64,000 nucleotides of DNA, taken from contig JAISMM010000012.1 in the NCBI GenBank assembly GCA_031276725.1, positions 1-64,000 of the forward strand, given 5' to 3'. The position numbers and the translations under genes are program-made. How positions within the stretch are numbered: position 1 is the stretch's first letter; every line of letters begins with the position of its first letter. The DNA is from Clostridiales bacterium. GTDB lineage: Bacteria; Bacillota; Clostridia; Christensenellales; Pumilibacteraceae. The notes under the pieces are model-generated. The model saw nothing but the letters and a program-made list of their open reading frames with translations, made no database searches and was not told the origin of the DNA. Positions 7,247-39,919 of the stretch are shown piece by piece.

Positions 7247-7362
7247 TAGCCTTGACGCTGTTTGTGGTTTGCGTACTTCGAGCATATTATCATAACCTTG
7301 CCGTGGCGCTTAATGACCTTGCATTTATCGCACATCGGCTTTACGGACGTTCGTACTTTCAT
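7246..7362 (-). CDS. rpmJ: 50S ribosomal protein L36
   Basis: Small gene of 38 codons. The product begins [20 protein letters not shown] and ends [11 protein letters not shown]. It is the zinc-binding C+ form with CxxC (11-14), Cys27 and His33. ATG lies 12 nt after infA, with an AAGGAG ribosome-binding site. The TAG stop overlaps the end of the repeat element at 7122-7246. Confidence 0.97.
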
Positions 7363-7374
7363 TGTTGTTACTCC

Positions 7375-7596
7375 TTAAAATTTGTTTCGGTAGGTTATTC
7401 GGCCCTTGGTTATATCGTAGGGCGACATTTCGAGCTTGACGGTGTCGCCGACCAATATCTTAATGTAGTGCATTCGTATCTTGCCCGAAATGGTGCAAGT
7501 AACGATATGTCCGTTGGCTAGCTTGACCTTGAACATAGCGTTTCGTAAACATTCGACGACGGTTCCTTCCGCTTCGATATTGTCGTCCTTCGGCAT
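7375..7596 (-). CDS. infA: Translation initiation factor IF-1
   Basis: 73-residue S1-like OB-fold protein that binds the ribosomal A site during initiation. Recognisable segments are [41 protein letters not shown] and [21 protein letters not shown]. It starts 3 nt after the KOW-domain gene, the usual position before rpmJ-rpsM. Confidence 0.98.
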
Positions 7597-7599
7597 ACC

Positions 7600-7863
7600 C
7601 TACCTCCCGTGTTTTTTGAGCGTCTTTTTGACGTCGGCGTCTTTCAATTTTAGCGTTTGCATAGCTTGTTCGTCGTACTCCTTTTGCAGAAACCTTAAAT
7701 GAGAAATTCTTTTTAGCTTAGGATTGTCAATCTTTCTGTACTCGCCGTCGCACACGAGCGCGAATCCGTCCGACACGTTCGCCACGACCAGGTAAATTCT
7801 GCCCGTGTCGTGCCCTTTAAGACTTACCGCCGCGTCGCCCGCGGATAACGTGTTTTTGTTCAT
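7600..7863 (-). CDS. KOW domain RNA-binding protein (L14e-like)
   Basis: 87 residues. The first 60 residues form a KOW/SH3-like fold (AGDAAVSLKGHDTGRIYLVV...), the type found in archaeal and eukaryotic L14e and in small Firmicutes proteins encoded between map and infA. The C-terminal part is basic. Position and fold suggest a ribosome-associated or translation-linked RNA-binding protein. The exact role is unknown. Confidence 0.85.
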   Translation of the reverse strand: MNKNTLSAGDAAVSLKGHDTGRIYLVVANVSDGFALVCDGEYRKIDNPKLKRISHLRFLQKEYDEQAMQTLKLKDADVKKTLKKHGR

Positions 7864-7983
7864 ACGTCCGACTATTATACCACAACGAATTTATTTTGTA
7901 AACCGTTTTAACGGTATGTTGAACAAAATGTCGGATTAAAACCGCGTCGGGATTAAAAATGACGGTGTTCGGTCGGAATCCGA

Positions 7984-8109
7984 GGCGGCAAAGAGGGGTG
8001 CGGCAGGCGCGGGCAACAGTCGCCGAACCGCCGAGGGCGCGTACTTTACGGGTATGTAACCGAGGCGGGAGGCGAGCGTAGCCCCTATCGACGCCCGCGT
8101 CCGCCGCCC
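7984..8109. mobile_element. MITE-like element flush with the map stop codon
   Basis: Left arm GGCGGCAAAGAGGGG at 7984; right end CGTCCGCCGCCC up to 8109, directly before the map stop codon (8110-8112). The core at about 8038-8062 (GCGCGTACTTTACGGGTATG) is shared with the element at 30595-30725 and, shortened, with the one at 17725-17854. The arms are more diverged than in other copies. Confidence 0.6.
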
Positions 8110-19701: not shown

Positions 19702-20334
19702 CTACTTTGATTTAACGGCCGTCTTGACCGTTAAAAGTCCGCCCTTAGGCCCCGGAACCGCGCCGCGCACGAGTAAAACGTTGCGCTCGGTGTCCACTCT
19801 TACTATTTTAAGGTTCTGAATCGTTACGCCGTCGTGGCCGAACCTGCCCGGCATATGCATGCCCTTTACGACCTTAGCCGAGTTAATCTCGCCCAAGGAA
19901 CCGTGCGAACGGTGAACGGGGCCCGTTCCGTGCGTCATTTTAAGCCTGCGCTGATTCCAACGCTTGATAACGCCGCTGAACCCGTGGCCCTTAGAAACGC
20001 CCGAAACGTCCACGACGTCGCCGTTTGCGAAAATGTCGCACTTGATGTCCGAGCCGACCGCGAACTTTTCGCAGTCGTTAAGCCGCAGCTCGCGCAGCAC
20101 GCGCTTGGGGGCGGCGTTCGCCTTTTTGAACGCGCCCGCCTCCGGCTTGTTCAGCTTGTCCTCGCGAATCTCCTCGAAAGCCACCTGCAACGCGCAGTAG
20201 CCGTCGCGCTCGACGGTTTTTTTGCGCACGACGGTCATCGGCCCCGCCGCTATAACGGTAACCGGTATCATTAATCCTGTTTCGTCGAAAATTTGGGTCA
20301 TTCCCAATTTGCGGCCGAATATTGCCTTTTCCAT
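19702..20334 (-). CDS. rplC: 50S ribosomal protein L3
   Basis: L3, 210 residues. Contains KAIFGRKLGMTQIFDETG, VDVSGVSKGHGFSGVIKRWN and GRFGHDGVTIQNLKIVRVD, all typical. Second gene of the S10 cluster, 33 nt after rpsJ. Confidence 0.98.
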   Translation of the reverse strand: MEKAIFGRKLGMTQIFDETGLMIPVTVIAAGPMTVVRKKTVERDGYCALQVAFEEIREDKLNKPEAGAFKKANAAPKRVLRELRLNDCEKFAVGSDIKCDIFANGDVVDVSGVSKGHGFSGVIKRWNQRRLKMTHGTGPVHRSHGSLGEINSAKVVKGMHMPGRFGHDGVTIQNLKIVRVDTERNVLLVRGAVPGPKGGLLTVKTAVKSK

Positions 20335-20367
20335 TGCTCCTATGCTCCTTTTTGCCCGCCGCGTCCC

Positions 20368-20676
<309 letters not shown>

Positions 20677-23039: not shown

Positions 23040-23290
23040 TTTTCCGAATTTGCGTTTGGGCGGAAAAAGCAACCGAATTTATGAGGTTGCATCGCTTGCG
23101 GCAACCTTGATTTTTAGACGATTATTAAGACCATAAAACAAAAACGACGCTTTATGTTTTTTGCCCTTATTAAGTCCGCCCAAATCGGGTCAAGCAAGCG
23201 CAAAAAAACTTCGTTTTTTGCAAGCGTAGCGCCGATTTGCGTTTGGGCGGAAAAAGCAACCGAATTTATGAGATTGCCCCGCTTGCGGCG
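23040..23290. repeat. Repeat pair flanking a hairpin-rich segment
   Basis: About 50 bp starting near GCGTTTGGGCGGAAAAAGCA occurs twice in direct orientation (about 23048-23100 and 23239-23288). Between them lie hairpins, including AAAAAACTTCGTTTTTT (about 23200-23218). Much of the middle recurs at about 45620-45752. The second copy encodes the last residues and stop codon of the TrpA-like gene. Confidence 0.65.
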
Positions 23291-24003
23291 GCTTTAAACA
23301 ACGCGATTGTGGATTTTAGCGCGGGAATATCGTCGTGGAGCTTTAAGATTACGGAGCCGATAAACACTCCGTCGGCGCCGGAGGCGGCGGCGGAGGCGAC
23401 GTCTTGCGGGGTCGCGACGCCCACGCCGCAGTAGATTTTGCGGCCGTCCGCGATTTGGCGGACGCGGGCGACGCACTTATCGAGCGACTCGAAGCCCGGC
23501 TTGATTTTGCCGGACGCGGGCTTTGCCTGCAAGTAAATAAAGCCGTTGCTTTCCTTGGCGGCGGCAAGCTCGGCGGGGTCTAGGTGATACTGCACGTAAC
23601 AGCTTATTTTGAGTCCCGCGGCGATAAGGCGGTTCTTGATTTGCCCGTCTTTAAGCCCGACGAATATAAGGTCGCGCATATCGTTCGCGAGGCAAAAATC
23701 TATAATCTTTTGAACGCCGATTTTTATAACGGTGCTTTCGTAGGCGAGCAGAATAAAGCGCGCGGACGGCAGCGCTTTTTTCATAGCGGCGATTCCGCTA
23801 AGATATTTATCGTAATCGGAACAGTTTTCAAGCGCTTTTCGCATTCGGGACGCTATAAAATCACTCTCTAAATACGGGTCGGCGGCGGGCAAATCGCATT
23901 CGATTACGTCGCACCCCGCCTCGACGTAGGCTTTGGCAACCTCGAAACTCCTTTCGAGCGTGGGATACCCGTACGACAGGTAGCAAATTAATTTTAACGG
24001 CAT
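23266..24003 (-). CDS. TrpA-like TIM-barrel lyase, orphan
   Basis: 245 residues, similar to tryptophan synthase alpha. YLSYGYPTLERSFEVAKAYVEAGCDVIECDLP matches the barrel entry, with the catalytic-Glu position (Glu49 of E. coli TrpA) kept. The Asp60 position appears as Glu in DPYLESD. C-terminal GVGVATPQDVASAAASGADGVFIGS is the phosphate-binding region. No trpB or other trp gene is present. It is the last gene of the nucleoside operon, so a role in cleaving a phosphorylated pentose by a retro-aldol step is a reasonable guess. A true tryptophan role is unlikely. Confidence 0.75.
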   Translation of the reverse strand: MPLKLICYLSYGYPTLERSFEVAKAYVEAGCDVIECDLPAADPYLESDFIASRMRKALENCSDYDKYLSGIAAMKKALPSARFILLAYESTVIKIGVQKIIDFCLANDMRDLIFVGLKDGQIKNRLIAAGLKISCYVQYHLDPAELAAAKESNGFIYLQAKPASGKIKPGFESLDKCVARVRQIADGRKIYCGVGVATPQDVASAAASGADGVFIGSVILKLHDDIPALKSTIALFKAAASGAIS

Positions 24004-24013
24004 TTAATTCTCC

Positions 24014-25165
24014 TTACATATTTCCGTAGTATATTGTCTTTAACAGCCTTACAAGTTCGCCCGCGTCGGGAATAACCGGCGACGTTTTTGTGCAGCCGTC
24101 TTTAAGAGCGAGCGCGGCGGCCTTATCGATTTCCGCCAAATAGGCGGCCTCGTTGGGGATAACGTCGGACAGCCTTTCGGGAATGCCGACGCTTTTATTC
24201 AGCTTGCGTACCGCCGCCGCAAAATCGGCCTCGCCGAGCGATTCGGCGAGCGAGCGGTAAGCCTCGTAGGCGCATTCGTCGGCGGAGTTGAATTCGGCGA
24301 CGTAGGGCAAAATCACGGCGTCCAACAGCCCGTGCGAAAGCCCGAACATACCCCCAAGGGCGTGCGCCATAGAATGGACGATCCCCAGTGAAACGTTTGT
24401 GAACGCAAGCCCTGCCGCCATAGACGCGTTGAGCATTTTTTCGCGGTAGAACATACTGCGGCCGTCGTTATAAGCCTTTGGCAAAAACTCGAAAATGTCG
24501 CGGGCGGCGCGGCGGGCAAGAGCGTCCGACACGTAGTTTGCCCGAACCGAAACGAGCGCCTCGGCCGCGTGGGTAAGAGCGTCCATTCCCGTTTCCGCCG
24601 TTATGTTGGGCGGCATGGTGAGCGTTACCGCCGGGTCGCAGATGGCCAGGTCGGGCATCATCTCGAAGTTGCCGATCCCGACCTTGAAGCCGTAGTCGTC
24701 GGTTATGACGATCGAGCGGCTGACCTCGCTGGCGGTTCCCGCCGTGGACGGTATGCATACGCAGCGCGCCTTTTGACGCAGAACGGGGAAGCGGTTGGGG
24801 GGCAGAAGATCCGCAAGACCCGTCAAATCCGGCCGCTCGTAAAACACCCACATGGCCTTTGCCGCGTCCATAACCGAGCCGCCGCCGAGGGCGACTATCC
24901 ATTCGGGGGAAATTTGCGCCATTTCGAGCGCGCCGCGCCTTACCGTCGCGAACGAGGGGTCGGACTCGACGCCGCTAATGTGGCCGACGTCCTTAAAGCC
25001 CGCCTCCCTTAAATAGCCCGTAACCGCGTCTAAAATGCCGCTTTTTTGCATAGAACCGCCCCCCGTTACTATCACGGCGCGGCGGCCGCGAAGGTTTTTG
25101 AGGTACGCGAGGGTTCCCGCCCCGAATAACAGCTGGTCGCCCGCAAGTTTCATAGGTCGCATCAT
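24014..25165 (-). CDS. Iron-containing alcohol dehydrogenase
   Basis: 383 residues, group III Fe-ADH fold. NAD-binding GGGSVMDAAKAM at about 96-107, PSTAGTASEVSRS, and metal ligands in GMDALTHAAEA (Asp, His) and HSMAHALGGMFGLSHG (two His). Members reduce short aldehydes or oxidise alcohols and polyols with NAD(P). In this operon, reduction of a two-carbon aldehyde from pentose cleavage is proposed; the substrate cannot be read from sequence. It lies 10 nt before the TrpA-like gene. Confidence 0.88.
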   Translation of the reverse strand: MMRPMKLAGDQLLFGAGTLAYLKNLRGRRAVIVTGGGSMQKSGILDAVTGYLREAGFKDVGHISGVESDPSFATVRRGALEMAQISPEWIVALGGGSVMDAAKAMWVFYERPDLTGLADLLPPNRFPVLRQKARCVCIPSTAGTASEVSRSIVITDDYGFKVGIGNFEMMPDLAICDPAVTLTMPPNITAETGMDALTHAAEALVSVRANYVSDALARRAARDIFEFLPKAYNDGRSMFYREKMLNASMAAGLAFTNVSLGIVHSMAHALGGMFGLSHGLLDAVILPYVAEFNSADECAYEAYRSLAESLGEADFAAAVRKLNKSVGIPERLSDVIPNEAAYLAEIDKAAALALKDGCTKTSPVIPDAGELVRLLKTIYYGNM

Positions 25166-25186
25166 ATTGTAAAGTCCTCCTGTTTT

Positions 25187-25984
25187 TTATTTTTTTATTT
25201 GTTGAATTAACTCTTTTGCAAGTTTTAACGACACCGGGTTATTAATATCGCCGTCCTCTTTAAGCCCCGAGCCGATAATAGCGCCGTCGCCGACTTTTAG
25301 CTGTTCGGCGATATTGCTTTTGTTGACGCCGCTCCCGATTATGACGGGAATTTTGACGGCGTTTTTGACGCGGCTCACGGTTTCGAGCGGGGTTTGCGCC
25401 CCTATGCGCGTACCCGTAACTATAACCGCGTCCGCCCCGCATTCGCAGGCGGCGCGGGCGCTGTCCTCGACCGTAACGCGGGATAGCAGCATATGGGTGT
25501 GCTTTACGTGAATATCGGCGAACACCTTGACGCTTTGCGCCCCGATTTTTTGACGGAACTGCATACACTCGCGCGCGCAGGGCGTAATCGCGCCGCCGTA
25601 AAAGACGACCGTATCGACAAAGACGGGTATCCGCACGAACGCGCCGCCGATAAGACGCGCTATCGACAGCGACGCCTTGCAATCGTTAAACGCCGCGTCG
25701 ATCCCCACCGGGAGTCTTACCGCGTTTTTGACGGCGGCGGCTATAATAGAAAGTCCGCAAAGCTGTTCGGTATCTAAAAGCGCGGCAAAGGGGGCGTCGC
25801 CCATATTTTCGACGCAAACGGCGTCGCAGCCGGCCTTTTCGAGCGTGAGCGCGTCCGCCGCCGCCCTTGCGACGACCGCGTCGAAGTCGCCGCAAAAGCC
25901 GGGAGTACCTAAAAGCGGGGCGCAGTGAACCATACCTATAATAAAGCCCTTGCCGGCACCGAAAATATTATTGTCCGCGCCCAT
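25187..25984 (-). CDS. BtpA/SgcQ family TIM-barrel protein
   Basis: 265 residues. IGMVHCAPLLGTPGF, CDAVCVENMGDAPF, GIDAAFNDCKASL and AQSVKVFADIHVKHTHM are characteristic of the BtpA family, named for a cyanobacterial photosystem I biogenesis factor; SgcQ of E. coli lies in a sugar-PTS cluster. No enzymatic activity is firmly assigned. The C-terminal half (VIIGSGVNKSNIAEQL...DGAIIGSGLKEDG) looks like a phosphate-binding barrel end, suggesting a sugar-phosphate enzyme. The start overlaps the phosphorylase gene by 17 nt. Confidence 0.8.
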   Translation of the reverse strand: MGADNNIFGAGKGFIIGMVHCAPLLGTPGFCGDFDAVVARAAADALTLEKAGCDAVCVENMGDAPFAALLDTEQLCGLSIIAAAVKNAVRLPVGIDAAFNDCKASLSIARLIGGAFVRIPVFVDTVVFYGGAITPCARECMQFRQKIGAQSVKVFADIHVKHTHMLLSRVTVEDSARAACECGADAVIVTGTRIGAQTPLETVSRVKNAVKIPVIIGSGVNKSNIAEQLKVGDGAIIGSGLKEDGDINNPVSLKLAKELIQQIKK

Positions 25985-26738
25985 CTTCGCACGCCTCCTT
26001 GTGATATTCGGCTACGCCGTTCAAAACGATTTCGGCCAAGTCCCGCTCGGCCCTTGCGCGTTCGTCGCCTTTTAGAAAATCTTTAAGATTTTCGAGCACG
26101 GTCGTCATAGCGACTACGCACGTTTTTACGCCCATAAGCGAACCGAGGGTGAGTATTAAACTGCTCTCCATATCGACGCCGACGACGTTTAAGCGCCGTA
26201 AGTCCGCGAACGTCGAAAGTATGTCGGTTCCGCGTTCCTTAGAAAAACGCGACTCGCGCATACGGCTGTAAAAGCCGTCGAGCGACGCTATTATTCCGTT
26301 GTCGACCCCGCGCGAAAACCTTGCGCACACCCTTGAAAATACGCTCAAAAGTCCGTAGTCGGCGACGGCGGGGTACGAGGGCGGCGCGTAGGTTTCGCCC
26401 GTCCTTTCGCCGCGAACGGCGCCGCGCGGAATAAGCAGCTTGCCCAAAAGGTCGTCTTTAAGTCCCATAATTGTGCCGAGGCGCACCGCGACCTTCATAC
26501 CGCACTCGTACATTTCCTCTAACGCTATCGCCGCGCTCGGAGCGCCTATACCCGTGCTTGACACCGTTACCGGAACGCCGCGATAAAAGCCCGTAACCGT
26601 GTTGAATTCGCGGTTGAACGCTATCTTTTTTGCGTCGCTCAAAAATTCCGCTATCATATTTACGCGCTGCGGATCGCCCGAAAATATCACGTAGGGCGAT
26701 ATGTCGCCCTCCCCGGCTTGTAAGTATAGTGTTTTCAT
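25968..26738 (-). CDS. Nucleoside phosphorylase (PNP/UDP family)
   Basis: 256 residues. Splits nucleosides with phosphate into base and (deoxy)ribose-1-phosphate. VIFSGDPQRVNMIAEFL (phosphate site), YRGVPVTVSSTGIGAPSAAIALEE, VRLGTIMGL, and LNVVGVDMESSLILTLGSLMG, whose MES motif binds ribose. Closest in style to uridine phosphorylase or trimeric/hexameric PNP-I; base preference cannot be told. Its stop overlaps the BtpA-like start. Confidence 0.88.
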   Translation of the reverse strand: MKTLYLQAGEGDISPYVIFSGDPQRVNMIAEFLSDAKKIAFNREFNTVTGFYRGVPVTVSSTGIGAPSAAIALEEMYECGMKVAVRLGTIMGLKDDLLGKLLIPRGAVRGERTGETYAPPSYPAVADYGLLSVFSRVCARFSRGVDNGIIASLDGFYSRMRESRFSKERGTDILSTFADLRRLNVVGVDMESSLILTLGSLMGVKTCVVAMTTVLENLKDFLKGDERARAERDLAEIVLNGVAEYHKEACEDGRGQ

Positions 26739-26789
26739 ATTGTTACCTCCGATTTTTATTTTTTTGCGATATTGATACGATAAGAATAA

Positions 26790-26911
26790 GCGGACAAAGA
26801 GGGGCGTTCAGACCGGCGACGGGCGACGGGGTATCGAATGAGCGTACGTTGACGTACCCGATTGAGATACGCCGCAGCGCGCAGCCGTTATCGACGCCCC
26901 TATTCGCCCGC
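26790..26911. mobile_element. MITE-like element; right arm encodes the PfkB stop
   Basis: Clean terminal inverted repeats: GCGGACAAAGAGGGGCGTTC (26790-26809) and, on the minus strand, GCGGGCGAATAGGGGCGTC (26911-26893). The core CGAATGAGCGTACGTTGACG is shared with the element at 33692-33887. The arm's TAG (26902-26900) is the stop of the PfkB gene. Confidence 0.8.
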
Positions 26912-27856
26912 GCCGCCGAAACATTTCCGTAGGCGGTTTTCCAATGCTTGCACATCGGGAATATTGGTCAACGCGCCCGTAGACTCTATGACGAACGAGG
27001 CGAGAGTCGAGCCGTAACGGCAGCATTCTTCGGCGCCTTTGCCGCCCAGATAGCCGTACAAAAAGCCCGCTATATAGGCGTCGCCCGAGCCGGTGGTGTC
27101 GGCCACATTGCGCGGGGGAACTACGCAAACGTCGCCGCGCTCCGTCCTATCGCCGCGCCGCCAAAAGTAGCGGCTGCCGTTTTTGCCGAACGTCGTCACT
27201 ATGATTTTGGCGCGGCCGCGCTCCGATAAATCCGAAATGTCTTTTAGCCCGAACTTTTTTTGAATAAATCCGCGCTCGCAGTCGTTCGTAAAGACGACCT
27301 CGGAATTCGTTAAAAGCTCCCACAAAAAGTCGGACGGGAAGGCGTCGGAATCGCATTTCATACCGAACACGACGGGAATCGTGCGGGCGCGGCATTCGTT
27401 ATAAAAGTGAAGGTTGTCCTTGTAACCGCCGACCGTTATCACGCCGAGCCTGACGCCGTCAAAAATATCTCCGCTTAGCGGCGCGAAATATTTTTCGTCG
27501 GTCGCGCCGGGGTAAAAAACCGTAACGTGGTCGTTGTCGCCGTCCAAAATCAGATAGCAGTTGCTTGTGGCGTCGCCGTCCGTCCGCGTTACCGCCCCCG
27601 CGTAGACCCCCGCGCCCTCTAAAAACGCCTTAAAGCCGCTCGATTCGTAGTCGCGCCCCACGCGCACGACGGGCCCGGCGCCGACTCCCAGCTTTGCGAG
27701 GGCGCAGGCGATATTGACCGAACAGCCGCCGTAATAGACGGCCGCGTTGTCGGCGTTTGTAACGATCGCGGTATGACCGGGACGCGCGTGCGATTTTACG
27801 CGGATAATTCTGTCGAGGCTCGGGTAGCCGCTTATAAGAATTTGCGGTTTAATCAT
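26900..27856 (-). CDS. PfkB family carbohydrate/nucleoside kinase
   Basis: 318 residues. N-terminal ISGYPSLDRIIRVK, substrate loop GGCSVNIACALAKLGV, and C-terminal signature DTTGSGDAYIAGFLYGYLGG with the catalytic Asp (PfkB pattern DTxGxGD). The family includes ribokinase, adenosine/nucleoside kinases and archaeal ribose-1-phosphate kinase. Beside a phosphorylase, ribose-1-phosphate is one plausible substrate, a nucleoside another. It overlaps the isochorismatase gene by 4 nt. Its last codons and stop are supplied by a repeat arm. Confidence 0.87.
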   Translation of the reverse strand: MIKPQILISGYPSLDRIIRVKSHARPGHTAIVTNADNAAVYYGGCSVNIACALAKLGVGAGPVVRVGRDYESSGFKAFLEGAGVYAGAVTRTDGDATSNCYLILDGDNDHVTVFYPGATDEKYFAPLSGDIFDGVRLGVITVGGYKDNLHFYNECRARTIPVVFGMKCDSDAFPSDFLWELLTNSEVVFTNDCERGFIQKKFGLKDISDLSERGRAKIIVTTFGKNGSRYFWRRGDRTERGDVCVVPPRNVADTTGSGDAYIAGFLYGYLGGKGAEECCRYGSTLASFVIESTGALTNIPDVQALENRLRKCFGGAGE

Positions 27857-28422
27857 AATTCGCCGCTCCTTATAAGCTCCGACAGCTCGCCGCCGCTTAT
27901 TACCCTTCCGTAGTATTTTGCTATGTCGTTAAGATAAACGTTGTTGACCGTTTCGTCGTTCGTGGCGACGCATTCGCGGACCACGTAGACGTTGTAGCCG
28001 TAATTGAACGCGTCGTTTACCGTGGCGCGGATACAGCAGTTGGTTTTGGCGCCGACTATAACGGCGTTTTCGATTCCGTTCTCCCTTAAAATCAGGTCTA
28101 AATCCGTCCCGAAAAACGCGCTGTAACGCCGCTTTTGCACTATATAATCGCCCGCAGGGTCGGGCGCAAGAACCCCGCAAATCTCCTCGCCGCCGCTGCC
28201 CTCTATGCAATTGGGGCGCACCTTAGCAAGCATTTTGTCGGGTTTAGCCTTACGGTGGCGGTGTTGAATAAAGACTATAAGCGCACCGCTTGCCCTTAAC
28301 TCGTCCTTAACGGAGGCTATGCGCGGCAGAATCGCGCCCGTTTGCGGGTAGTAGACGCGGCCCGCGGGGTCGGCGAAATCGAACAGCATATCGACTATTA
28401 TAAGCGCGGTTTTTTTACTCAT
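27853..28422 (-). CDS. Isochorismatase-like cysteine hydrolase
   Basis: 189 residues. The Asp-Lys-Cys triad is visible: ALIIVDMLFDF (Asp), VQKRRYSAF (Lys) and VGAKTNCCIRATVNDAFNYGYNV (Cys). PNCIEGSGGEEI matches the loop HC..GT.G.E of nicotinamidase and carbamoylsarcosine-type amidases. Members hydrolyse amides, nicotinamide or isochorismate. Here it could act on a base such as nicotinamide released by the phosphorylase, but that is inference. It overlaps the permease gene by 8 nt. Confidence 0.82.
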   Translation of the reverse strand: MSKKTALIIVDMLFDFADPAGRVYYPQTGAILPRIASVKDELRASGALIVFIQHRHRKAKPDKMLAKVRPNCIEGSGGEEICGVLAPDPAGDYIVQKRRYSAFFGTDLDLILRENGIENAVIVGAKTNCCIRATVNDAFNYGYNVYVVRECVATNDETVNNVYLNDIAKYYGRVISGGELSELIRSGEL

Positions 28423-29317
28423 TATAAAACCCCCTCAAAGAATTCCCCTTGTTTTTCAGGACGGACGCGACTGTCAAAAGTACGACTATCATAACGTACG
28501 GAACGGCGGTTAAGAGCCTTGCGGCGGCGGCCGACGTCAGCTGCAAATACATTGCGGCGGCGTTTGAAAACCCGAACAGTACGGCGTAGAGGGCGGCCTT
28601 TAAGGGGTAGCCGCGCCCGCAATAAATCGCCGCGATAGCGATGAAGCCGCGCCCGAACGTCATATTGACGGCATAGACGCCGCCGAAGCAGTCCACCGCC
28701 AGGCTCACCCCCGCAAGCCCGCAGGCGGCCGCCCCGATAAGGACGGCGGCGTAACGGACGCGGTTTATGTTTATGCCCACGGCGCGCGCCGCCTCGGGAT
28801 TTTCGCCCGCGACGCGGATATAAACGCCCGTTTTGGTTTTGAACATTAAAACGCCCGCCGCAAAAATCAGCGCGTAGGAAAGATACGTTAATAGCGTGTG
28901 ATTGGCGAACGCGCCCAAAAACGGAACCGACGCCGCGCCCGAAAAGAGGCGCACCGACGTGAGCGAAAAGTCGGCGGCGACGAGCTTGGCGATCCCCATA
29001 CGCCGTAAAATCAGGGCGGTGAACCCGGACGCGAAAAGGTTTAGGGCAAGCCCGATTATAATGACGTTCCCCTTGCGGCTCACCCCGAAAACCGAGAACA
29101 CGACGCCCAAGAAAAGCGAGACGCCGACCGCCAAAGCAACGGCGGCGAGGTAACTGCCCGTAAGATAAACGGTGAGCGCGGCGACGAACGCCGCCGTAAG
29201 CATCATACCTTCCAGCGCGATATTAAGGACGTTCGCCTTGTAGGCGAAAATGCCGCCGAGCGTGCATAAAAGAATCGGCGAGGAAAACAGCACGGTGTTA
29301 TAAAGTATGTTGTTCAT
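28415..29317 (-). CDS. Nucleoside ABC transporter permease (second subunit)
   Basis: 300 residues, eight or more hydrophobic helices, BPD_transp_2 family. GIFAYKANVLNIALEGMMLTAAF near the N-terminus and VAGENPEAARAVGININRVRY in the central cytoplasmic loop are hallmarks of the NupQ/BmpE-type permease. Overlaps the first permease gene by 20 nt, so translation is coupled. Confidence 0.9.
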   Translation of the reverse strand: MNNILYNTVLFSSPILLCTLGGIFAYKANVLNIALEGMMLTAAFVAALTVYLTGSYLAAVALAVGVSLFLGVVFSVFGVSRKGNVIIIGLALNLFASGFTALILRRMGIAKLVAADFSLTSVRLFSGAASVPFLGAFANHTLLTYLSYALIFAAGVLMFKTKTGVYIRVAGENPEAARAVGININRVRYAAVLIGAAACGLAGVSLAVDCFGGVYAVNMTFGRGFIAIAAIYCGRGYPLKAALYAVLFGFSNAAAMYLQLTSAAAARLLTAVPYVMIVVLLTVASVLKNKGNSLRGFYNE

Positions 29318-30431
29318 CGGTTCGTTCTCCTTTTTTTCTCTTAAAAATTCCTTTGATTTTGCCGAAAATACGCCCCGCGCCCTCGCGGAATTTAACGTTT
29401 TTAGACAGGTACGAAACCGACAAAAACAGTATTATGAGCGCCTGAATAACAAAAATAATCTCGTTGGGAATTTTGGTAAACAGGGCGGCCTGCGATACGC
29501 CCACCTTTAACGCTCCGTAAAAAACCGCCGCTATAAGTATGCCGAAAACCGAATGCGAGCCTAAAAGCGAAACGAGCATCCCGTCCCACCCCAAGCCCGG
29601 CGAGCCGGAAAAGTCGAGCGTGTAGCGGTATTTTTCGCCGAGCATCCACCCCGCTCCCGCAAGCCCCGCGAGCGCGCCGCTAAGGAGCATAACCGCTATG
29701 ATTTTTTTGCGGACGTTCATCCCCGCCGCCTCGGCGAACTCCGGGTTTTTGCCTATCGCGGTAATCTCGTAGCCGAGCCGCGATTTTTTGAACACGACCG
29801 CCATAACGGCGAACGCGGCGAGCGCGATTAAAAAGAACGCCGTCAAATTAGTGCCGAACAGCCGCCCGAACGCCGCCGAACCCGCTATCATATCGGTCGA
29901 AACGTAGCCCGCCGACGGATCGCGGAAAACGCCCTCCGCCAAAAACGCCAGAATTTCGACGGCGGCGTAGTTGAGCATAAGCGTAACGACCATTTCGTTC
30001 ACCTTAAAGTACGCCTTTAAGAGCGCGGGCACAAGCGCGAAAAGCGCGCCCGAAAATACGGCCGCCGTAAGGCAGAGCGGAATGTGGACGGCGGCGGGAA
30101 CGCCGCGCATACTTGCCCCTATTATGCCCGCGACGAAGCCCCCCAAAAGCATTTGCCCCTCGACGCCCATATTGAACACGTTCGCCTTGAACGTTACGCC
30201 GATCGCAAGCCCCGTCAAAATAAGCGGCGCCGCCACGTGCAGAACGCGCATAAAGCCGTCGGGAGTAAACAGAGCGCGGCCGAGCATCGTCGCGTAAACC
30301 GAGAACGGATTCTCGCGCGCGGCGGCTATTATCAGCGCCCCGCCGACAAACGCCAGCAGCACCGGTATAAGCGCGTTGCAAAAAGCCGCAACCCCGCTCT
30401 TAATATTTTTTACCGTTTTTTCTTTCAGCAT
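29298..30431 (-). CDS. Nucleoside ABC transporter permease (first subunit)
   Basis: 377 residues, BPD_transp_2 family, NupP-like. VTFKANVFNMGVEGQMLLGGF and the loop AIGKNPEFAEAAGMNVRKKI are diagnostic. A basic C-terminal tail follows the last helix. Works with the partner permease and the double ATPase to import nucleosides through the membrane. Confidence 0.9.
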   Translation of the reverse strand: MLKEKTVKNIKSGVAAFCNALIPVLLAFVGGALIIAAARENPFSVYATMLGRALFTPDGFMRVLHVAAPLILTGLAIGVTFKANVFNMGVEGQMLLGGFVAGIIGASMRGVPAAVHIPLCLTAAVFSGALFALVPALLKAYFKVNEMVVTLMLNYAAVEILAFLAEGVFRDPSAGYVSTDMIAGSAAFGRLFGTNLTAFFLIALAAFAVMAVVFKKSRLGYEITAIGKNPEFAEAAGMNVRKKIIAVMLLSGALAGLAGAGWMLGEKYRYTLDFSGSPGLGWDGMLVSLLGSHSVFGILIAAVFYGALKVGVSQAALFTKIPNEIIFVIQALIILFLSVSYLSKNVKFREGAGRIFGKIKGIFKRKKGERTDEQHTL

Positions 30432-30594
30432 AGTTTTACTCCTTTAAAACCTCCTTACAAGTTTAGCCGACTTAAAGCCGCCGCACTCGTTAGGAGTTTT
30501 CCGCAGAGGGAATTTTCGGCGGCAAGCCGACGGAACGGCATATCGACAGCCGCCGGTTTGCCGTTTGCAGAGTGTCGGCAACCGCGCGTTCGCC

Positions 30595-30725
30595 GGGCGG
30601 CAAAGAGAGGCGTGACAGGCGCGGGCAACGGTCGCCGAACCGCCGGCGGCGCGTACTTTATAGGTACGTAACCGGGGCGGTTTCGGCAAACCCTAGGCCG
30701 CTATCAACGCCCCTATCCGCCGCCC
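30595..30725. mobile_element. MITE-like element overlapping the end of the ATPase gene
   Basis: Arms GGGCGGCAAAGAGAGGCGTG (30595) and, on minus, GGGCGGCGGATAGGGGCGTT (30725-30706). The core GCGCGTACTTTATAGGTACG is shared with the element at 7984. The TAG in the right arm (30715-30713) ends the ABC ATPase gene, giving its GGG C-terminus. Upstream, 30432-30594 holds no gene, only further repeat fragments (30461-30484 resembles 34821-34846). Confidence 0.75.
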
Positions 30726-32314
30726 GGCATAACACCGGCCATCATAAGCCCGAGCGTCTCCCCGTCCGCCCCGCGCGGCGCCTCGCCGACGACGGCGCCC
30801 TTGTACATAACGATAACGCGGTCGGACAGATTCATAATTTCGGAAAGCTCGCTCGAAACGAGCAAGACCGCCTTGCCCGCGTCTTTAAGCTCCAACAGCT
30901 TTTTGTGAATGAATTCGATAGAGCCGACGTCGACGCCGCGTGTGGGCTGGCTGGCTATCAGTACGTCGGGGTTAGACGACAATTCGCGGGCGACTATCAG
31001 CTTTTGCGCGTTGCCGCCCGACAGCTGCGACACGTCGCCGTCGGGGTCGCAAAGGCGCACGTCGAAGTTTTTGACAAGGCCGTCGCGCCGCCGTATAACG
31101 GCTTTTTTTGACAGCAGTCCGAAGCGCGAAATTTGCCTGTCCCGATGGTAGCCCGCGATCGCGTTTTGGGCTACGGTCATATCGCGGCATAGCCCCTGAC
31201 CGTAGCGGTCCTCGGGAATAACGGCGATTTTATTTTCGCGCACGGCTTTTGGCCAGGCGTCCGTAATGTCCGCGCCGCCCTTCAAAACGGTTCCGCCCGC
31301 GACCGTCATAAGTCCGGTAAGCGCCTTTACAAGCTCGCTTTGACCGTTGCCCTCCACGCCCGCCACACCCAAAATCTCGCCCGCGCGGATATTAAAACTA
31401 ACGCCGTCCACGGCTTTCCGACCGTCGGGGGCTACGACCGAAAGATTCTTGACCTCGTAAACGACGCCGCCCGCAACCGGCGCCCCGCCCGTTTTAGGGC
31501 GTTCTATGTCGCGGCCGACCATCATACGCGCCAGCTTTTTTTCGTCGGTGTCAAAGGTTTTCGCCTCGCCGACGACCGCGCCGCCGCGAATGACGGTAAC
31601 GGAATCGGACGCGTCCATAACCTCGCGCAGCTTGTGCGTGATTACGATGACGGTCTTGCCGCCGCGCCGTAACTCTTTGAGGCTGCTTATGAGTTCGTCG
31701 GCCTCGCGCGGCGTTAAAACCCCCGTCGGCTCGTCCAAAATAAGGATTTGCACGTCGCGGTAAAGCATTTTAAGGATTTCGACGCGCTGTTTTTCGCCTA
31801 TCGACAGATTTTTTACGAGCGCGGCGGCGTCAAGCCCGAGGTTGTATTTTTGTATAGTCCGCTCGACGGCGGCTTTTTGGGCGGCGGCGTCGATTAACGG
31901 CAGCGGCAGCCTCCGCGCGGCGAATTTGTCATTTAAGGCGGGCCTTTTGCGGACGAACGGCAAAAGGCAAAGCGGTTTAAGCGGCGCGAAGGCGCGCCGG
32001 ATTTCGGAGCCCAAAACGACGTTTTCAAACACGGTAAGATTCGGCGACAGCTTAAAATGCTGATGCACCATACCTATGCCGCGCTTTATCGCGTCGGACG
32101 GGCTCGCGAACCTTACCGGCTCGCCGTCCACCAAAATTTCGCCGGACGAGGGCTGCAAAAGTCCGTACAGCATATTCATAAGCGTGCTTTTACCCGCGCC
32201 GTTTTCGCCCACGACCGCCTTAATTTCGCCGCGCTCCACCCTTATGTCGATTTCGTTATTCGCGGTAAAATCCCCGAATTTTTTTGTAAGCTTACGCGTT
32301 TCAATCGCCGTCAT
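30713..32314 (-). CDS. Nucleoside ABC transporter, double ATP-binding subunit
   Basis: 533 residues, two ABC domains. Domain 1: Walker A VVGENGAGKSTLMNM (about 34-48), signature LSIGEKQRVEILK, Walker B ILILDEPTGVL. Domain 2 lacks a canonical Walker A (VAGVEGNGQSELVKAL) but has LSGGNAQKLIVARE, as usual for NupO/YufO and RbsA-type proteins. An insertion at about residues 115-145 is unusual. Powers the importer with the two permeases and the BMP lipoprotein. Its stop lies in a repeat arm. Confidence 0.93.
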   Translation of the reverse strand: MTAIETRKLTKKFGDFTANNEIDIRVERGEIKAVVGENGAGKSTLMNMLYGLLQPSSGEILVDGEPVRFASPSDAIKRGIGMVHQHFKLSPNLTVFENVVLGSEIRRAFAPLKPLCLLPFVRKRPALNDKFAARRLPLPLIDAAAQKAAVERTIQKYNLGLDAAALVKNLSIGEKQRVEILKMLYRDVQILILDEPTGVLTPREADELISSLKELRRGGKTVIVITHKLREVMDASDSVTVIRGGAVVGEAKTFDTDEKKLARMMVGRDIERPKTGGAPVAGGVVYEVKNLSVVAPDGRKAVDGVSFNIRAGEILGVAGVEGNGQSELVKALTGLMTVAGGTVLKGGADITDAWPKAVRENKIAVIPEDRYGQGLCRDMTVAQNAIAGYHRDRQISRFGLLSKKAVIRRRDGLVKNFDVRLCDPDGDVSQLSGGNAQKLIVARELSSNPDVLIASQPTRGVDVGSIEFIHKKLLELKDAGKAVLLVSSELSEIMNLSDRVIVMYKGAVVGEAPRGADGETLGLMMAGVMPGGG

Positions 32315-32402
32315 AATTTTTCTCCCGCGCTCGTTTTATCATTTGTCGTCCTCCTTTTTATGCGCCCTTTTTTCTATTAAACGCACTCGTGCTTATAAAC
32401 GC

Positions 32403-33608
32403 TCATTTGCTTATTCGGTTTACGTTCGGTATCAGCTCCGCCTGCCGCGCCTCGAAGCCCGCGTAGCCGTTCCTTTGGCAGTCGTAAACCTTAATCGTGC
32501 CGTCGGCGATTTTGGCGGCTATATCGGCGACCTTATCCTTAATTTGCGCCCATTTTGCAAGCCCCGACTGCTTGACCGCCGCGCCCGCCGCCGCCAAATC
32601 CGTAATCCCCGTCGCGCCGGACGCCAAGTCGTAGTACGCCAAATTCGCGAACCGCCCGAGCGTACCGTCGCGGTACGCCTCCGTGATGCCCTTTACCGGA
32701 ACGTCGGTATTTTTGAGTACGGACGTCAAAACGTAGCCGGGTCTGTCGCCGTCCTTATTCGCGTCCACCTCGATGCCGAATCTTTTGGAGTCGCTCGCCT
32801 TTGTGGTAACGCCCGCGCCCACGTTGCCCGCGCAGGCGAATACTATGTTGCCGCCCTTGTCGTAAACGCCCTTGGCGAACGTTTGACCCGCCTGCATATC
32901 CACGAAGCCCGCGCTGTTATTCTCGTAGTAATCGTACCTTACGCCCGCCCCCAGCTCCAAGTCCGCGACGGCGCGGCTTATGCCCGACATATAGCCCGCG
33001 CTGAAAACGTAAATGCCGTCGGACGCGGTGCCGCCTATAAAGCCTATCGAGCGGTTGCCGCTCAAATTAAGGCTGTGCGTCGCCGAATCGAAAAGCGCGG
33101 CGGCGTTTTCGTTGACGAGCACCGACAGATACCCCGCAAGATACGACGCCTCGTGAACGTTAAACAGCACGGATATAACGTTTTTGTGAATGACGCTCCC
33201 GTCGCCGTTTCGGTTGGGATCGGCGTTAAAAACTACGAACGTGGTGCCGGGGTAGCGCTTTGCGAGCGGCTCTTGACCGCCCACGCCCTTAATAAGCGCG
33301 TCGAAGTCGTATTCTAACGAGAATATCAGCTTTGCGCCGGCGGCCGCCATCTGCTCTATCGCCTTGCCCGCCGTCAAATCCGAGCCGATTTCGACGACCT
33401 TAGTTTTGTAGCCGTACTTGTCCGCCATACTTTTAAGACCGTTAACGGCCGTTTGATTGTAGCCGTTGTCGTTAGAACCCGCCGCCGCGCATATGAGCGC
33501 GATTTCGATTCCGCCGCCTTTGGCGGTGCAGCCGCCGAACGCGAACACGCCCGCCGCCGCGATAACGGCGGTCAGCGCCGCCGCGATTTTTGTAAAAAGT
33601 CCCTTCAT
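32403..33608 (-). CDS. BMP family nucleoside-binding lipoprotein
   Basis: 401 residues. Lipoprotein signal with lipobox FGGC (Cys27). BMP domain: ICAAAGSNDNGYNQTAVNGLKSM, SLEYDFDALIKGVG, NVHEASYLAGYLSVLV, SIGFIGGTASDGIYVFSAGYMSG and FACAGNVGAGV. Extracytoplasmic receptor of the importer (NupN/BmpA type). ATG preceded by AAGGAGAT. The 440-nt gap upstream contains a repeat element. Confidence 0.93.
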   Translation of the reverse strand: MKGLFTKIAAALTAVIAAAGVFAFGGCTAKGGGIEIALICAAAGSNDNGYNQTAVNGLKSMADKYGYKTKVVEIGSDLTAGKAIEQMAAAGAKLIFSLEYDFDALIKGVGGQEPLAKRYPGTTFVVFNADPNRNGDGSVIHKNVISVLFNVHEASYLAGYLSVLVNENAAALFDSATHSLNLSGNRSIGFIGGTASDGIYVFSAGYMSGISRAVADLELGAGVRYDYYENNSAGFVDMQAGQTFAKGVYDKGGNIVFACAGNVGAGVTTKASDSKRFGIEVDANKDGDRPGYVLTSVLKNTDVPVKGITEAYRDGTLGRFANLAYYDLASGATGITDLAAAGAAVKQSGLAKWAQIKDKVADIAAKIADGTIKVYDCQRNGYAGFEARQAELIPNVNRISK

Positions 33609-34048
33609 AATTGTTATCTCCTTTTGTAAATTTTTTTGAATTTGTTGTCAAGATTATTTTTTGCCGCTGTTTGCCGCTCCGTTTTCCGCCGGGAGCGGCA
33701 AGGAGTGGTGTTCAGACGGGCAACAGGCGGCGCCGAGCCGACAAACGGCTTGCCGTTTGCAGGGTGAGCACCCGCCGGAGCGGAACCCGTCAACGAGGCG
33801 AGGCTTGCCGAATGAGTGTACATCGACGTACTCGATTGAGGCAAAACGCCGATCGTAGCCCGTATCAACGCCGCTATTTGCCGCTCCGATCCCCGGTATA
33901 AATTCTATCCCGTTTAAAGGCGCCGTATTCAATTCTACATCGTATGTTTCCTCCTACTTTTGCGATTGTTATGTCGTATTGTCGTCATTACCACTTGATT
34001 TACAGCGTTGCCGCGGATCGCCCGTTCGGACGGCGCGTTGCGGGCGGT
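33609..34048. other. Intergenic region with repeat element and orphan Shine-Dalgarno
   Basis: Between the regulator and the BMP gene. Positions 33692-33887 are a MITE-like element. On the minus strand, AGGAGGAAACATACG (33957-33943) is followed directly by ATG-TAG (33942-33937), a start codon next to a stop. No riboswitch or clear second promoter was recognised. Confidence 0.5.
33692..33887. mobile_element. MITE-like element, 196 bp
   Basis: Arms GGAGCGGCAAGGAGTGGTGT (33692) and inverted match ending TATTTGCCGCTCC (33887). Internal modules include the hairpin AAACGGCTTGCCGTTT and the palindromic core around 33808-33842, shared with the element at 26790. Confidence 0.75.
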
Positions 34049-34795
34049 TTAGCCCTTACGCTGTTGCCCGACCTGCTCTATAAAGAACTTAAACTTGTCG
34101 GTGCGGTACGCGGACTCGAACGTTTCGACCGGGATTTCGGCGCCGCCGCGAATCCTGCCGTAGGTTACCGCGCGGAACATAATTATGGGAGCGCCGTCGT
34201 CCATCTCTAAATACCGCGCCGCGCCGCCCTTGACCGAAACGGCTTCGAGCGTGCGCGTGGACTTTGTAAGCTCGACGCAGTACTCCTTTTTGAGCGTTTC
34301 GTAAAGACTCGCCGCCTCAAAGTTAAACCGCTCGATACCCTTTATGTACTTGTACGGCAGGTACGTGGTGGTGTAGTTGATCGGCACGCCGTCGGCGTAG
34401 TAGACGCGTTCGAGCCTAAAAACCGGCTCGTCGGGACTAAGGCGCAAAAGCCTCCCCTCGCGCGTGTCCGGCACGCCGACCGACGCCGATATAATCCTCC
34501 GCGAGGGCTTCATACCGTAGCGGACTATATCGTCGGTGCAGCTAGAAAGCGAATACAAATCGTGTGCGATTCCGCCGTCGAGGACGAACGTCCCCTTGCC
34601 CTGAACGCGGTACAAATACCCCTCGCGGACAAGCTCGTCGATAGCCTTCCGCACGGTGATACGCGAAAAGTTGAACTTGTCGACCATCTCGCGCTCGCTC
34701 ATAATCGGCTCGTTCGGCGCGGGCTTCGCGGCGTCTATCATATCGATAATCGCCTTTTTTAGCACGTAGTACTTAGGTACAGGTACGTCTTGCAT
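34049..34795 (-). CDS. GntR/HutC family transcriptional regulator
   Basis: 248 residues. N-terminal winged helix: PIMSEREMVDKFNFSRITVRKAIDELVREGYLYRVQGKGTFV (about 28-72). C-terminal UTRA ligand domain with RRIISASV, RVYYADGVPINYTTTYLP and FRAVTYGR. First gene of the nucleoside operon, so it most likely represses it and responds to a nucleoside, sugar phosphate or base. Promoter at 34950-34978; no clear palindromic operator was found. Confidence 0.9.
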   Translation of the reverse strand: MQDVPVPKYYVLKKAIIDMIDAAKPAPNEPIMSEREMVDKFNFSRITVRKAIDELVREGYLYRVQGKGTFVLDGGIAHDLYSLSSCTDDIVRYGMKPSRRIISASVGVPDTREGRLLRLSPDEPVFRLERVYYADGVPINYTTTYLPYKYIKGIERFNFEAASLYETLKKEYCVELTKSTRTLEAVSVKGGAARYLEMDDGAPIIMFRAVTYGRIRGGAEIPVETFESAYRTDKFKFFIEQVGQQRKG

Positions 34796-34949: not shown

Positions 34950-34978
34950 ACTTTACCACACCTTCCGCCGTTTGTCAA
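34950..34978 (-). promoter_or_regulatory. Sigma-A promoter of the nucleoside operon
   Basis: TTGACA (34978-34973), 17-nt spacer, TAAAGT (34955-34950) on the minus strand. It sits about 155 nt before the regulator gene, in the divergent gap with spoIIID. The leader 34796-34940 has no recognised motif. Confidence 0.75.
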
Positions 34979-39572: not shown

Positions 39573-39919
39573 TTAACCCGCCCCCTCCGAAGGAAATTTT
39601 TTAACGGTTAATTTTGAAAATTTAACCGCCCCGGCGGCATTCGCGGCACGAACCGAGCCTGCAAACGGCGAAGCCGTTTGCAGGGCGTGCGAGCTTGCGA
39701 GCTAAGCCCGACCACACGGGCGAGGCATTCCATAGAAGGGAATTTTAGCGGAATGACGGGCGGTCAAAAGAGCTTTTCGCCGACACGGATAAAAAATCGG
39801 GCAAAGAACCGTCAGGGCGGCAAAAACGGGTTTTCGCCGAAGCGACGTGTATATTTAATACACGAGCAAGGCAAAGTTCCGTTTTTGGCGCTATCAACGG
39901 GATTTTTCACCGTCCGGTC
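39573..39919. repeat. Repeat-filled gap before lysC end
   Basis: No gene seen. 39648-39740 is a near copy of 51-141 (hairpins CAAACGGC/GCCGTTTG and GCGAGCTTGCGAGC). 39770-39918 carries the hairpin CGTGTAT...ATACACG and outer parts GGCAAAAACGGG and CCGTTTTTGGCGCTATCAACGGG that are partly inverted. Confidence 0.6.

Follow-up and report, generated by a model that had tools for sequence, protein, structure and literature searches.

In haloarchaea, the non-carboxylating pentose bisphosphate pathway combines a phosphorylase of the uridine phosphorylase (UP) family with a PfkB-type ribose-1-phosphate (R1P) kinase, an IF-2B-family ribose-1,5-bisphosphate isomerase, a HAD-type ribulose bisphosphate (RuBP) phosphatase, a FucA-type aldolase, and a glycolaldehyde reductase, and the authors of that work suggested that R1P kinases may be more widespread in bacteria (PMC9700705). 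In the bacterial deo pathway (deoA or deoD, deoB, deoC, and an alcohol dehydrogenase), phosphorolysis is followed by formation of an aldehyde and a triose phosphate, and in the RhaD-FucO pair of L-rhamnose degradation an aldolase occurs beside an aldehyde-reducing Fe-type alcohol dehydrogenase (FeADH). Here we describe an operon in a Clostridiales bacterium of the family Pumilibacteraceae that has features in common with each of these systems. The operon resides in a 64,000-nucleotide stretch of contig JAISMM010000012.1 (hereafter the window, part of contig C64), which belongs to a metagenome-assembled genome (MAG) of 1.88 Mb that is ~93% complete.

Eleven open reading frames (ORFs) on the minus strand, some of them overlapping, occupy positions 23266-34795 of the window. 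All are present as outlined in a preliminary description of this DNA, and Pfam and NCBIfam profile searches agree with the families named there. We propose that they form a self-contained, patchily spread catabolic cassette for a nucleoside or nucleoside-like riboside, a reading that, together with the reaction steps set out below, we hold at slightly under even probability. The haloarchaeal pathway is the closest analogue in logic, as both systems have a UP-family phosphorylase, a PfkB-type kinase, and an aldehyde reductase encoded by linked genes. However, the cassette lacks the IF-2B isomerase, the HAD phosphatase, and the FucA-type aldolase, and instead encodes a BtpA-family barrel, a TrpA-like barrel, an isochorismatase-fold hydrolase, and a dedicated ABC importer. 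In contrast with the deo pathway, no deoB or deoC homologue is found in the operon or the MAG, and a PfkB kinase and two other barrels are present instead. RhaD, in turn, is a metal aldolase of class II and has no relationship to TrpA.

Conservation of the eleven-gene cassette

A scan with the TrpA-like protein as query and one genome per species revealed ten relatives at 54-57% identity and one weak, unrelated match. Nine of the ten loci extend upstream of this gene, and in all nine the UP, BtpA, FeADH, and TrpA-like genes are contiguous in that order. Profile searching across the class (391 genomes) then added nine further carriers, each with the complete 11-gene order. The gene is carried by 10 of these 391 genomes and by 1 of the 396 genomes of the window's order, the other 395 yielding no second copy and only matches to ordinary TrpAs. 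In total, 20 loci are available (the window and 19 others), and the UP-BtpA-FeADH-TrpA-like block occurs in the same order in all 19 that can be assessed. The full set of eleven is in order in 15 loci (the window, L012, L013, L014, L016, L017, and L061-L069). Because the same genes recur in the same order in other genomes, the operon represents more than a chance arrangement. The preliminary description had treated the downstream genes as part of a single unit and had named, as a result that would refute its proposal, a rare association of the last three genes with the transporter and phosphorylase in relatives; the survey did not refute it, and a single functional unit is strongly supported.

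The hosts comprise several families of Clostridia together with a Chloroflexota MAG (L021) and a Pseudomonadota MAG (L019), and L012-L014 derive from mouse-gut isolates. The genes flanking the cassette differ among many of the loci. This patchy distribution and the differing flanks indicate that the cassette moves as a unit, and it is on these two features that the case for horizontal spread rests, because the GC content of the operon is unremarkable. In one locus, from Lachnospiraceae A2 (L020; KE159638.1), most of the gene for permease 2, all of the isochorismatase and PfkB genes, and the 5′ end of the gene for UP are missing at 7281-8016, where there are no Ns; this gap is consistent with natural deletion or decay, or with misassembly. 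In several genomes the cassette lies near ribosomal-protein genes, such as rpsF-ssb-rpsR in the flanks of L064 and L065 and L3/S10 at 19702-20676 of the window, which is perhaps a preferred landing place or else a coincidence.

Substrate class of the cassette

The first gene of the cassette, in each of the 15 complete loci, encodes a GntR/UTRA-family regulator (34049-34795; PF00392 and PF07702). It is followed by the genes for a BMP/PnrA-like substrate-binding lipoprotein (32403-33608; PF02608, E 4e-25), an ABC ATPase with two nucleotide-binding domains (30713-32314; PF00005 in two stretches; ~50-60% identity in relatives), and two ABC permeases (29298-30431 and 28415-29317; both PF02653, BPD_transp_2). 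BMP-type importer genes are present in all intact loci except L019, where the ABC importer is absent and a Nuc_H_symport protein (a NupG-type nucleoside:H+ symporter, 449 bits) takes its place, preceding the genes for PfkB, UP, BtpA, FeADH, the TrpA-like protein, and the isochorismatase in that order. As two unrelated nucleoside-type transporters thus accompany the same six enzymes, the substrate is very likely a nucleoside-like compound, in keeping with the substrate class originally proposed.

The enzymes that would act first on the substrate and its base offer some indication of its identity. The phosphorylase (25968-26738; PF01048, PNP_UDP_1) is a UP-like member of the NP-I family that scores 162 bits against the uridine phosphorylase equivalog TIGR01718, under the cut-off of 280.3. 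In the family alignment its phosphate-site residues (GDPxR, REF, and R86-G88-T89) are invariant. In uridine phosphorylase, a Q-x-R motif recognizes uracil and a histidine is a residue of the 5′ site. The Q-x-R motif is not conserved within the cassette family, where RMR, CMH, QMR, or MMH is found, and a tyrosine (Tyr5) in 18 of 18 sequences aligns with this histidine in structure 3qpb. The motif comparison used E. coli sequences, and the 3qpb alignment serves as an independent check.

The isochorismatase-fold cysteine hydrolase (27853-28422; PF00857) is of the amidohydrolase-like type found in every intact locus, and its residues D11, K97, and C130 are invariant in 18 sequences. Its nearest solved structures, 3hb7 and 3eef, are both unassigned, and it falls well below the cut-offs of the equivalogs for nicotinamidase (NF008623; 32.9 bits versus 174), RutB (64.6 versus 377.95), and biuret amidohydrolase (68.3 versus 370). 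The altered base and 5′ sites of the phosphorylase, along with the occurrence of this hydrolase in every intact locus, hint at a non-canonical nucleoside. Salvage of nicotinamide riboside was considered and rejected, given the low nicotinamidase score and the failure of the metal-holding residues of nicotinamidase to be kept between loci. Riboflavin breakdown by the fin genes was likewise set aside, as the report of that system makes no mention of BtpA, TrpA, or isochorismatase (PMC12934955).

The TrpA-like barrel and its partner enzymes

The last gene of the operon (23266-24003) encodes a TrpA-derived barrel whose sole Pfam match is to PF00290 (E 5e-24; 85 bits, cut-off 27), with none to the DeoC family, and whose score of 72.9 bits against the trpA equivalog TIGR00262 is under the cut-off of 102.35. 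The true trpA of the MAG adjoins trpB on contig C14 and scores 287 bits in PF00290; this separate trpBA pair rules out a second tryptophan synthase. There is no trpB in the operon. An AlphaFold model of the TrpA-like protein (pLDDT 91.5) has the TrpA fold and superimposes on TrpA structures with a Z score of 28.6 and an rmsd of 2.1 over 231 residues.

We compared 20 members of this family with seven true TrpAs, six from the order and one from E. coli. The TrpA-like proteins constitute a clade of their own (100/100 support) on a long branch. They have in common with TrpA the two catalytic acids, in that E35 (equivalent to E49 of TrpA) is present in 20 of 20 sequences and either E or D occupies the D60 position in all 20, as well as the phosphate-binding motifs GxG and GS. 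In contrast to TrpA, they have no TrpB partner, a shortened loop 4, and, in place of the GVTG of catalytic loop 6 (absent from all 20), a K-P/A stretch. A lysine, Lys161, is found in every member of the family at a place where all seven true TrpAs have Arg or Ser, and in the model it is situated two residues past strand 6. It is there, at the end of strand 6, that class I aldolases such as deoxyribose-phosphate aldolase (DERA), 2-keto-3-deoxy-6-phosphogluconate aldolase, and fructose-bisphosphate aldolase carry their Schiff-base lysine. The reaction of TrpA itself is a retro-aldol split releasing glyceraldehyde-3-phosphate (PMC11574760). Given the strand-6 lysine and this native chemistry, the likeliest role of the TrpA-like protein is that of an aldolase whose aldehyde product would be reduced by FeADH; the cleavage and aldehyde removal envisaged in the preliminary description are plausible. 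In the open-access literature, we found no account of a TrpA-like aldolase of this kind.

FeADH (24014-25165) matches the Fe-ADH family in profile searches. It is closest to the alcohol dehydrogenase domain of AdhE, and its expected metal ligands (D195, H199, H264, and H278) are invariant in 19 sequences. Elsewhere in the MAG, on contig C26 (L050, 280-2274), a class II aldolase adjoins a second FeADH, a pairing that follows the same logic as that of the TrpA-like protein with FeADH. This aldolase is the only PF00596 protein of the MAG and is unlinked to the operon; it resembles RhaD, and with its neighbor it probably serves L-rhamnose degradation.

The BtpA/SgcQ-family protein (25187-25984; PF03437, 215 bits) is a barrel of the ribulose-phosphate-binding type. 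It exceeds the cut-off of TIGR00259 (208.5 bits versus 153.4), scores 160.8 bits against the photosystem I biogenesis model NF045918 (cut-off 400), and belongs to a subfamily of its own, sharing 29-37% identity with the members from rhizobia, haloarchaea, Thermus, and Pantoea. Its predicted structure (pLDDT 81.6) is a phosphate-binding barrel in which the loop bearing the invariant K161-H162 is of low confidence. The best structural match, MJ1099 (4rc1; Z 21.0), is nearly tied with the next, at Z 19-20, which are GGGPS, thiamine-phosphate pyrophosphorylase, hexulose-phosphate synthase, NanE, and HisF. The open-access literature yielded no assigned reaction for the BtpA family and no paper joining BtpA with nucleosides and PfkB.

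BtpA genes also occur in other settings. On rhizobial plasmids (L023, L025, and L026), a sugar ABC transporter, a phosphotriesterase-like protein, a glutamine amidotransferase, PfkB, BtpA, and a Zn-dependent hydrolase recur together. In L043 (6969-16233), BtpA accompanies PfkB, an SIS-domain protein, a BMP importer, and an amidohydrolase, and in L044 (6437-17316) it accompanies PfkB, an SIS-domain protein, DeoC, AllG, and an amidohydrolase; both look like Amadori- or ureide-riboside pathways. From this proximity to PfkB and amide hydrolases, the BtpA family seems to track riboside-type catabolism. The PfkB-family sugar or nucleoside kinase of the operon (26900-27856; PF00294) has as its nearest solved structure 2c49, the sugar kinase MJ0406. 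Its catalytic base, D259, is invariant in the family alignment, and its match to NF053626, the model for R1P kinases, reaches 59.6 bits, the cut-off being 330.

Proposed pathway, competing explanations, and genomic setting

From the gene set, synteny, family assignments, and conserved residues, we infer the following series of reactions. The GntR protein would sense the substrate, and the BMP-type ABC importer would take it up. The UP-like enzyme would then use phosphate to convert it to a base and a pentose-1-phosphate, with PfkB phosphorylating the pentose either at this stage or earlier, as the nucleoside. This phosphorylated sugar may be rearranged by the BtpA barrel. The TrpA-derived barrel, by means of its retained acids, phosphate pocket, and new lysine, would carry out a retro-aldol cleavage, giving a triose phosphate along with an aldehyde of two carbons that FeADH would reduce to an alcohol while regenerating NAD+. 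The isochorismatase-type hydrolase would most likely act on the freed base, which would therefore be a non-canonical, amide- or ureide-bearing one. Our search of the open-access literature found no description of the operon. A more specific version of this proposal, that of an undescribed bacterial pathway for non-canonical nucleosides in which a TrpA barrel has become a class I sugar-phosphate aldolase by way of its strand-6 lysine and has as its partners an isomerase of the BtpA family and a cysteine hydrolase that processes the base, is more tentative, and we regard it as somewhat doubtful.

Several points weigh against the proposed cassette chemistry. We found no reported activity for the BtpA subfamily of the operon or for a comparable TrpA relative. 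Instead of forming a Schiff base, Lys161 could hold a carboxylate or phosphate group. No PfkB model separates R1P kinases from nucleoside or sugar kinases, all scores being under cut-off. Moreover, the operon encodes no phosphatase, such that a bisphosphate cleaved directly would yield glycolaldehyde phosphate, an awkward product.

The preliminary description noted that the operon has no deoB, deoC, or ribokinase/rpi set. Across the whole MAG there are indeed no matches to deoB or to the DeoC/LacD family, whereas the absence of rpi is only local, as RpiB has two matches outside the operon. As a motive for the cassette, the absence of deoB and deoC is weakened by the other carriers: among the nine searched, eight have a full deoB and eight a DeoC/LacD-family protein. 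The cassette is therefore not explicable as a replacement of the deo route, and would instead add a substrate or a redox outlet.

Another reading makes the cassette a bacterial equivalent of the haloarchaeal pathway acting on ordinary nucleosides. In such a scheme, PfkB would convert R1P to ribose-1,5-bisphosphate, BtpA would form RuBP, an unlinked phosphatase would give ribulose-1-phosphate, and the TrpA-like protein would release dihydroxyacetone phosphate and glycolaldehyde, with FeADH producing ethylene glycol. The similarity in logic, with the phosphorylase, kinase, and reductase noted above, speaks for this scheme, as does the absence of any IF-2B-family protein (PF01008; ribose-1,5-bisphosphate isomerase/MtnA) from the MAG, which leaves a slot for BtpA. 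Against it, the cassette has neither an RuBP phosphatase nor a FucA-type aldolase, the PfkB score is far below the R1P-kinase cut-off, the prevalence of deoB among carriers means that no detour is needed, and the isochorismatase, a core member of the cassette to which the preliminary description had assigned no part, is left idle. The preliminary interpretation is supported in part, most strongly in the single unit and the nucleoside class; a ribose-1,5-bisphosphate route is possible, and in this particular form we consider it unlikely.

Alternatively, the TrpA-like protein might be an analogue of DERA in a deoxyribonucleoside route, splitting deoxyribose phosphate into acetaldehyde and glyceraldehyde-3-phosphate, with the AdhE-like FeADH generating ethanol. 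The triose is the one released by TrpA itself, and the route is favored by the resemblance of FeADH to AdhE, the DERA-like placement of K161 at strand 6, and the lack of deoB and deoC in the window's MAG, but PfkB and BtpA fit poorly, and most other carriers possess deoB and a DeoC/LacD-family protein. We regard this route as distinctly improbable. Still less probable is a pathway in which the glycosidic nitrogen is kept, with PfkB phosphorylating the riboside, BtpA performing an Amadori step like that of HisA or TrpF, the TrpA-like protein splitting the ketosamine at its C-C bond, and the isochorismatase finishing the aglycone. BtpA and TrpA do resemble phosphate-binding barrels of tryptophan and histidine synthesis, and at other BtpA loci PfkB is found together with SIS-domain proteins and amide hydrolases, but the phosphorylase, which is encoded in every intact locus and has its phosphate site intact, would then be superfluous. 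Finally, we give very little weight to the idea that the TrpA-like and BtpA proteins are regulatory or detoxifying passengers with no catalytic step on the sugar, as their active-site residues are invariant and the gene order is kept in 19-20 loci.

A promoter-like site (TTGACA-17-TAAAGT) is present on the minus strand at 34950-34978, 5′ of the GntR gene, but is suggestive only, as such sites are no commoner than in shuffled sequences. A search for operators across the upstream regions revealed no common palindrome and no GTnTAnAC site. Elsewhere in the window, the palindrome CAAACGGCNNAGCCGTTTG occurs at 61-79 and 39662-39680 (0.02 occurrences expected by chance in the window). Similar palindromes lie within 33609-34048 and at the beginning of another contig (L002); the element is probably a repeat dispersed through this genome.

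Traveling together as one block, the conserved six-enzyme unit marks out a pathway that can be tested in gut and other anaerobes. If the proposed reactions are correct, they would provide a function for a subfamily of the widespread BtpA family, and would represent the re-use of a biosynthetic TrpA barrel as a catabolic aldolase.

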